From NCBI GenBank assembly GCA_001804125.1, contig MHFI01000010.1:1-35920 (forward strand): a stretch of DNA of 35,920 bases, written 5' to 3'. Positions 1,507 through 2,710 of this stretch are shown here, piece by piece (the first letter of the stretch is position 1; every line of letters begins with the position of its first letter). The DNA is from Omnitrophica bacterium RIFCSPHIGHO2_02_FULL_51_18. GTDB taxonomy: Bacteria > Omnitrophota > Gorgyraeia > 2-02-FULL-51-18. The notes beneath the pieces were generated by a model. It made no database searches, was not told the DNA's origin, and saw only the letters and a program-made list of their open reading frames with translations. The position numbers and the translations under genes are program-made.

Positions 1507-1561
1507 CACTTCGCAGCCCTCCTAAGTTCTGCAACGCAGAACGAAGGAGGGCGAAGAAGTG
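1507..1561. repeat. Imperfect hairpin element abutting the tmRNA 3' end
   Basis: CACTTC..CCCTCC..GTTCTGC-GTT-GCAGAAC..GGAGGG..GAAGTG arms directly after the encoded CCA of ssrA. Confidence 0.75.
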
Positions 1562-1947
1562 GTGGAGGCGGCGGGAATTGAACCCGCGTCTCCGGCTTTC
1601 GCACCTGGAGCTTCTACATGCTTAGCTGCTTATTTAGATGTCCTCTCCAAGCTCGAATCAGCACGATTTTAAAGAGTGAGCCCCATGTCACATCTCGTCA
1701 AACCAGCCAGAGACACGCTGGCAAGACCAGCCTGCTATCGACGCCCGACCTCATCCCGCAGGCGCAGATGAGCGGACGGCAGCCGTTATTAGGCGGCTAG
1801 CGGAAACGCCATAGGTGCCATGAAGGGCACCCGCACGATGTTCGTGTTTTTAGCGTTTAATTTGGTGCCAGGTGTTTAAGGAGGCCTCCCGACAACCTCC
1901 GCATGCTACTATCAGATCAAAGAGCCGGATCGAAACCGATCGCCCCC
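1560..1947 (-). ncRNA. ssrA: tmRNA (one-piece), encoded CCA; tag (A)AKNTNIVRVPFMAPMAFPLAA
   Basis: 5' GGGGGCGATCGGTTTCGATC and 3' GACGCGGGTTCAATTCCCGCCGCCTCCACCA pair as a tRNA-like acceptor; resume codon GCT at 1854, tag ends LAA with TAATAA. Confidence 0.95.
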
Positions 1948-2091: not shown

Positions 2092-2568
2092 TTATCTCCT
2101 ATTTCTACTCTTCACGGCGCGGTCGATGTCGCGCTCGGCGTCGCGCTTTTTGATGTCGGTGCGCTTGTCCCAGAGCTTTTTACCCTTCGCCACCGCCAAT
2201 TCCACCTTAGCCAGCCCGCGCTTGTTGAAATAGAGTTTTAAAGGGATCAGCGTAAAACCGCGTTCAAGCGCCTTGCTTTTAAGTTTTTCTACCTGAGAAC
2301 GGTGAAGAAGAAGCTTTCTGGCACGGGTGGGCTCATCGGGATTCTCCCGGTTCCCCATCTCGTAGGGCGCTATGTAAAGATTATACAAGAATAGCTCTTC
2401 CCCTTCAAGCCGCGCGAAACTCCCCGAGAGGCTGGCTTTGTGGTCCCTCAAGGACTTCACCTCGCACCCCGAGAGCATAAGCCCCGCTTCCATGGACTCA
2501 ACGATAAAATAATCCCGCCGCGCCTCGTGGTGCGTGACAATAACCGGATCTTCTTTCTTCCCTTTCAC
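2092..2568 (-). CDS. smpB: SsrA-binding protein SmpB (likely GTG start at 2568; track ORF extends to 2622)
   Basis: ARRDYFIVESMEAGLMLSGCEVKSLRDHKASLSGSFARLEGEELFLYNLYIAPYE... and C-terminal KGKKLWDKRTDIKKRDAERDIDRA; SD GAGGTG 5 nt upstream of GTG. Confidence 0.93.
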   Translation of the reverse strand: MKGKKEDPVIVTHHEARRDYFIVESMEAGLMLSGCEVKSLRDHKASLSGSFARLEGEELFLYNLYIAPYEMGNRENPDEPTRARKLLLHRSQVEKLKSKALERGFTLIPLKLYFNKRGLAKVELAVAKGKKLWDKRTDIKKRDAERDIDRAVKSRNRR

Positions 2569-2635
2569 CCCACCACCTCTTTGGCCCGCATACGCGGGCC
2601 GATTGTGAAACAATCGTTGCAAAGAGGTGGTGGGG
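2568..2635. repeat. Branched palindromic element (16-bp perfect outer stem plus two inner hairpins) abutting smpB start
   Basis: CCCCACCACCTCTTTG (2568-2583) / CAAAGAGGTGGTGGGG (2620-2635); inner GCCCGC-ATAC-GCGGGC and GATTGT-GAA-ACAATC. Confidence 0.9.
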
Positions 2636-2710
2636 TCATGGCGTTACTATAACATACACCGGGTGCCTTGAAAATTGCGAATAAAATGCCGGCTCTGTTA
2701 CAATGTGTGC

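Follow-up and report, generated by a model that had tools for sequence, protein, structure and literature searches.

In the window (the whole stretch of DNA analyzed here, 35,920 nucleotides of an Omnitrophica genome), a long palindrome lies across the start codon of smpB, raising the questions of how it came to be there and how the gene is translated when its Shine-Dalgarno (SD) sequence is part of the palindrome. An earlier note had offered two answers, a 5' UTR switch (thermosensor or attenuator) or a repeat inserted at the start codon. The inserted repeat is upheld by the data below and the switch is not. We conclude that the palindrome is probably a nonautonomous, MITE-like element that inserted into the smpB start and carries a translationally coupled mini-cistron.

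The palindrome at the smpB start codon

The features of the locus are as follows.

2092..2568, minus strand: smpB, GTG start at 2568-2566, 158 aa (Pfam PF01668, E 3.9e-52)
2565..2567, minus strand: second copy of the target site duplication (TSD), TGA, which is the mini-ORF stop and the source of TG in the new GTG
2565..2639, minus strand: mini-ORF MTPPPLCNDCFTIGPRMRAKEVVG, 24 codons, with its TGA stop overlapping the new GTG (GTGA)
2568..2583, minus strand: 3' arm in the smpB transcript, bearing the SD plus the opening G of the GTG
2568..2635, unstranded: palindromic mobile element, C-form, 68 bp, CCCCACCACCTC ... GAGGTGGTGGGG, one of the 71 distinct copies that lie between exact 3-bp direct repeats
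2574..2579, minus strand: SD sequence GAGGTG, 5 nt 5' of the GTG
2584..2599, unstranded: inner hairpin 1, GCCCGC-ATAC-GCGGGC (predicted fold)
2600..2616, unstranded: inner hairpin 2, CGATTGT-GAA-ACAATCG (predicted fold)
2620..2635, minus strand: 5' arm in the smpB transcript, including CACCTC, the SD complement
2636..2638, minus strand: first TSD copy, TGA (TCA on the plus strand), from direct-repeat comparison
2637..2639, minus strand: former smpB start ATG, now the mini-ORF start, from by-eye alignment with the empty starts of relatives
2646..2651, minus strand: extended -10 element, TATAGT with TG before it (promoter match; TATAGT/TATATT is common in family relatives)
2669..2674, minus strand: -35-like hexamer TTTTCA, 17-nt spacer (promoter match)

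The earlier note had described a 16-bp perfect stem enclosing two hairpins in a three-way junction. This structure is present in the sequence, with arms CCCCACCACCTCTTTG (2568-2583) and CAAAGAGGTGGTGGGG (2620-2635) perfectly complementary, and the predicted fold of the RNA agrees (-52.7 kcal/mol, z -7.5; 0 of 200 shuffles were equally stable). Also confirmed were its placement of GAGGTG (minus-strand 2579-2574) 5 nt before a GTG in the frame of SmpB, as identified by the PF01668 match, and its reading of the distal arm as an anti-SD, since CACCTC in that arm complements the SD. Sequestration of the SD by the stem is real in the predicted fold. Beyond that account, the element has further copies elsewhere in the genome, is flanked by TGA on both sides, and is crossed by a 24-codon mini-ORF that opens at the ATG at 2639-2637 and ends at 2565. 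The order in the window is -10 box, AACGCC ATGA, element, and then TGAAAGGG. The smpB start was split by the element as A|TGA, and the first G of the present GTG start is the final base of the element.

The sole minus-strand promoter-like match places the predicted +1 at position 2639, on the A of the former ATG, so that the smpB mRNA is predicted from sequence to be leaderless. A transcription start inside the element, which the earlier note had named as counting against its reading, is not favored, since this match puts +1 just before the element.

Automatic ORF calling opened smpB at an in-frame TTG at 2622 (ORF 2092-2622). This codon lies within the element, so a longest-ORF annotation would give smpB a false N terminus, and gene callers may misplace starts at element sites in general. 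Directly downstream of smpB on the same strand is the tmRNA gene, ssrA (window 1560-1947, minus strand), which makes both partners of trans-translation adjacent. Between ssrA and smpB, at 1956-2072, is a long imperfect inverted repeat, AAATCCGAAATCCGAAAC / GTTTCGGATTTCGAATTT, whose sequence is unrelated to the element.

Copies, target duplications, and empty sites

When the element's own genome (1.53 Mb) was searched with an 86-base query, BLAST returned seven matches, and a pattern search found about 20 palindromes, with a CCCCACCACCT-like sequence at one end, its complement at the other, and differing interiors. About 17 copies in this genome are flanked by duplications. A scan of 84,980 species genomes gave 52 stretches, mainly from Omnitrophota, Elusimicrobiota, and one deltaproteobacterial metagenome-assembled genome (MAG); a few matches appear fortuitous, namely those in Paenibacillus, Burkholderiales, and Nitrospirae. 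Arms were paired with at most 2 mismatches in 14, which yielded 100 candidate pairs. An exact 3-bp direct repeat flanks 71 of these, and they constitute the distinct copies analyzed here, from Omnitrophota, Elusimicrobiota, and a few other phyla; many of the 29 pairs without a duplication were overlapping or chance pairs. The terminal inverted repeats, with arms of about 15 bp, are paired in nearly all 71 copies and show compensatory variation at positions 12 to 15. The duplicated triplet is TGA/TCA in 51 copies, TAA/TTA in 9, CCA/TGG in 5, CAA/TTG in 3, and another in 3.

Direct comparison with empty orthologous sites was carried out at smpB. The smpB genes of family relatives start with ATGA or GTGA, mostly about 6 to 8 nt after TATAGT/TATATT, with no element. 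Comparing smpB upstream regions among relatives had been proposed in the earlier note; the element was missing there in at least 10 family relatives, and the smpB leader was not conserved. Evidence for mobility also came from a nested copy, in which deletion of the inner 66 bp and one TTG leaves an 80-bp element resembling a second 80-bp genomic copy. The insertion history of the element is well shown, and the second suggestion of the earlier note, that of an inserted repeat, is well supported by the repeated copies, the target duplications, and the empty sites in relatives.

Two nested arrangements were recorded. At locus L004 (1445-1593), the mini-ORF of the outer copy continues in frame into the inner copy, which is flanked by a TTG duplication of its own, and at locus L005 (1481-1626) an element nested in an element has an inner copy without an exact duplication.

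A dedicated RNA switch in the smpB 5' UTR, working as a thermosensor or attenuator, would explain a strong, stable fold that buries the SD. We nevertheless regard it as very unlikely. The structure precedes dozens of unrelated genes and occurs within coding sequence elsewhere, the smpB genes of relatives do without it, and a GC-rich stem of 16 to 17 bp is too stable for simple physiological melting. A known RNA family was rejected, since an Rfam search gave no match near the element.

When 145 genomes drawn from the phylum were searched with an exact pattern, the element was present only in its own genome, so its occurrence is patchy. Searches of viral contigs, plasmids, and phages gave no match, and a phage or plasmid element was rejected on that ground. 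The patchy presence across Omnitrophota, Elusimicrobiota, and further phyla suggests that an undescribed transposition system has spread horizontally. The rplJ start codon is occupied in two genomes of different phyla, an Omnitrophota genome (L006, 1506-1618) and a deltaproteobacterial MAG (L200, 1283-1398), apparently by independent insertions.

Reading frame and probable translation of the mini-ORF

Copies were assigned to two forms by the base that follows CCCCACCACCT, giving GAGGTGG in the 3' arm of the C-form and CAGGTGG in that of the G-form. The C-form has a length of 2 mod 3 in 24 of 25 copies and a TGA duplication in 25 of 25, whereas the G-form has a length of 0 mod 3 in 30 of 37 copies and mixed duplications (2 mod 3 versus not, Fisher p 2.7e-11). 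C-form copies are located at starts by a strict rule in 23 cases and at a start truncated by the contig end in 1; the only duplication-flanked copy outside a start codon lies in frame within an ORF and has a length of 0 mod 3. G-form sites comprise 14 starts, 10 in-frame positions inside ORFs, and 13 others. In all, 13 of the 71 copies are in frame with at least 60 codons on each side, 10 of them G-form; examples of in-frame insertion are PheT, a fumarase-like lyase, and a UvrD-like helicase.

Two start codons, those of gatC (L003, 1508-1576) and metG (L078, 1237-1302), carry copies with a length of 0 mod 3. Judging by frame, these copies would add an N-terminal extension, MTPPP...GGGV, to GatC or MetRS or would provide a new GTG start.

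With a TGA duplication and a length of 2 mod 3, the frame from the old NTG reaches the second TGA. The mini-ORF is open to exactly the second TGA in 30 of 30 TGA-flanked, 2-mod-3 copies, across lengths of 56 to 149 bp. All 30 have a possible NTG start in front and end in GTGA, and in each the new GTG begins a frame that either stays open for at least 80 codons or continues past the fetched stretch. In the controls, the reversed element was open in 8 of 30 cases and other frames in 10 to 17 of 30, and shuffled interiors averaged 0.33. Since copies from one genome share ancestry, raw counts overstate independence; when interiors were clustered at 70% identity (22 types) and one copy was taken per cluster, 22 of 22 were open, against 7 of 22 when the element was reversed (p 1.5e-6). 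The first TGA closes an upstream open frame of at least 80 codons in 17 of the 30. Where it ends an upstream ORF, the element has landed in a stop/start overlap and turned that one overlap into two. The host genes include rplJ, rplW, dnaG, secD, atpH, plsX, proS, ptsI, lysC, and smpB. An SD sequence is contained in the upstream frame, as GAGGTG in the arm of the C-form and as CAGGTGG in the few G-form copies among the 30.

The constancy of the mini-ORF, always open and in the correct frame, is also what a conserved small gene encoding a functional peptide (MTPPP...VVG), and not a mobile element, would produce. This reading is hardly credible, since the length (about 20 to 51 codons) and interior vary completely among copies, the common ends derive from the terminal inverted repeats, the duplications and nested insertion indicate mobility, and G-form copies lie in frame inside enzymes.

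With mobility, insertion site, and conserved mini-ORF geometry shown by sequence, we infer that translation is coupled by termination-reinitiation together with opening of the stem. The element entered the smpB start at A|TGA with a 3-bp target duplication, and the old ATG now opens a mini-ORF of 24 codons that crosses the entire palindrome to the second TGA. A new smpB GTG, which overlaps this stop (GTGA), is formed by the element's last G and the duplicated TG. The 3' arm provides an SD that the stem on its own would hide. According to the coupling model, a ribosome would start at the old ATG, unfold the stem while translating the mini-ORF, stop at the TGA, and reinitiate at the overlapping GTG, which would keep smpB under its original initiation signal. 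Because the mini-ORF traverses the stem, translational coupling is likely, and a thermosensor is not. Selection on insertions would purge out-of-frame or reversed copies. Should the stem breathe, the SD in the 3' arm might also recruit ribosomes independently.

In its full form, independent initiation holds that a mobile element sits at the start codon, that smpB initiates at the new GTG with the SD of the element, and that the mini-ORF is a by-product. The C-form copies do have an SD of the GAGGTG/GGAGGTG type with a spacing of about 5 nt, and an SD overlapping a start can act alone. Two findings nevertheless make this explanation unlikely: the SD is hidden in a stem predicted at -52.7 kcal/mol, and an untranslated mini-ORF would not predict 30 of 30 open frames versus 8 of 30 reversed, together with a length of 2 mod 3.

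Coupled reinitiation, the preferred reading, can be carried further. The C-form could be a class of transposable element specialized for translation starts, which inserts at NTGA, often where a stop and a start overlap within an operon, and brings a whole mini-cistron with it; we put this forward tentatively, at somewhat less than even chances. The start of the mini-cistron would overlap the upstream stop, and its own stop would overlap the regenerated downstream start. With the mini-cistron built in, the element could enter essential genes such as smpB, rplJ, rplW, and dnaG. Since the C-form is practically confined to starts, its insertion may be targeted to them rather than only filtered by selection. 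Coupled reinitiation would show how selfish DNA can invade the starts of essential genes and yet leave them expressed, because it brings along a ribosome-binding site, a substitute start codon, and a mini-ORF of tuned frame. The copies would also supply many natural, testable cases of translational coupling via an SD-hiding stem.

Relation to known repeats and candidate mobilizers

Neither a transposase nor an autonomous copy was found for the element, and the stretches examined contained no long element with paired terminal inverted repeats. DDE_Tnp_1 (IS4/IS5-type) was detected in 1 of 12 genomes, a carrier, and was rejected as the mobilizer because it is missing from all tested carriers but one. 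The ISAzo13 family gave no match, in a search whose control likewise gave none.

Spread by RAYT, a Y1 tyrosine transposase, as a REP/REPIN-type palindrome would fit a short palindrome, and Y1_Tnp proteins are encoded by the element's own genome, with 3 matches, as well as by several other carriers. We consider this origin highly improbable. Relatives in which the element went undetected have Y1_Tnp just as carriers do, carriers G003 and G023 (both incomplete assemblies) gave no Y1_Tnp match, and RAYT is disfavored as the mobilizer since Y1_Tnp showed no association with carriage of the element in the genomes compared. The element also has 3-bp TSDs, which to our knowledge are not a feature of RAYT-spread REP sequences. 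REP/REPIN sequences are described in the cited passages as short, palindromic, dispersed bacterial repeats that are mostly extragenic (PMC2817692, PMC3116915), whereas this element has other ends and is sited at start codons and in ORFs.

Bacterial MITEs are short and nonautonomous, with terminal inverted repeats, a TSD, and dispersed copies (PMC10969869). The element matches them in its terminal inverted repeats, fixed-length TSD, dispersed copies, and empty sites; it differs in being palindromic nearly throughout, with multiarm junctions, no parent IS found, a frame-tuned length, and a built-in ribosome-binding site and start. The element behaves like a MITE, and the G-form also resembles the Rickettsia palindromic elements (RPEs; Ogata et al. 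2000/2002), short palindromes found in frame inside protein genes (PMC10969869). The G-form likewise inserts in frame (PheT and the lyase and helicase above), whereas the copy in the window is at a start codon. The element appears to differ in sequence from RPEs, and it occurs in Omnitrophota and Elusimicrobiota. Insertion of the C-form at a start codon, with the start regenerated via a mini-ORF and a TGA/GTG overlap, is undescribed for RPEs in the parts of the source drawn on here (PMC10969869). Among the titles and abstracts returned by our literature search, none described the element or a start-codon form equipped with a mini-cistron.

Placement upstream of genes and provision of a ribosome-binding site liken the element to the Neisseria REP2 repeats, which are dispersed just upstream of genes and are said to provide a ribosome-binding site. 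We know of no TSD flanks or mini-ORF with a stop/start overlap for REP2. In ATGA gene pairs, whose stop and start codons share a 4-nt overlap, translation is coupled by termination-reinitiation and the upstream frame contains an SD (Huber et al. 2019, PMC6728339). The element shares with these pairs both the geometry of the 4-nt overlap and an SD within the upstream reading frame, but here a transposable palindrome serves as the upstream cistron and makes a second copy of the overlap into which it inserted.
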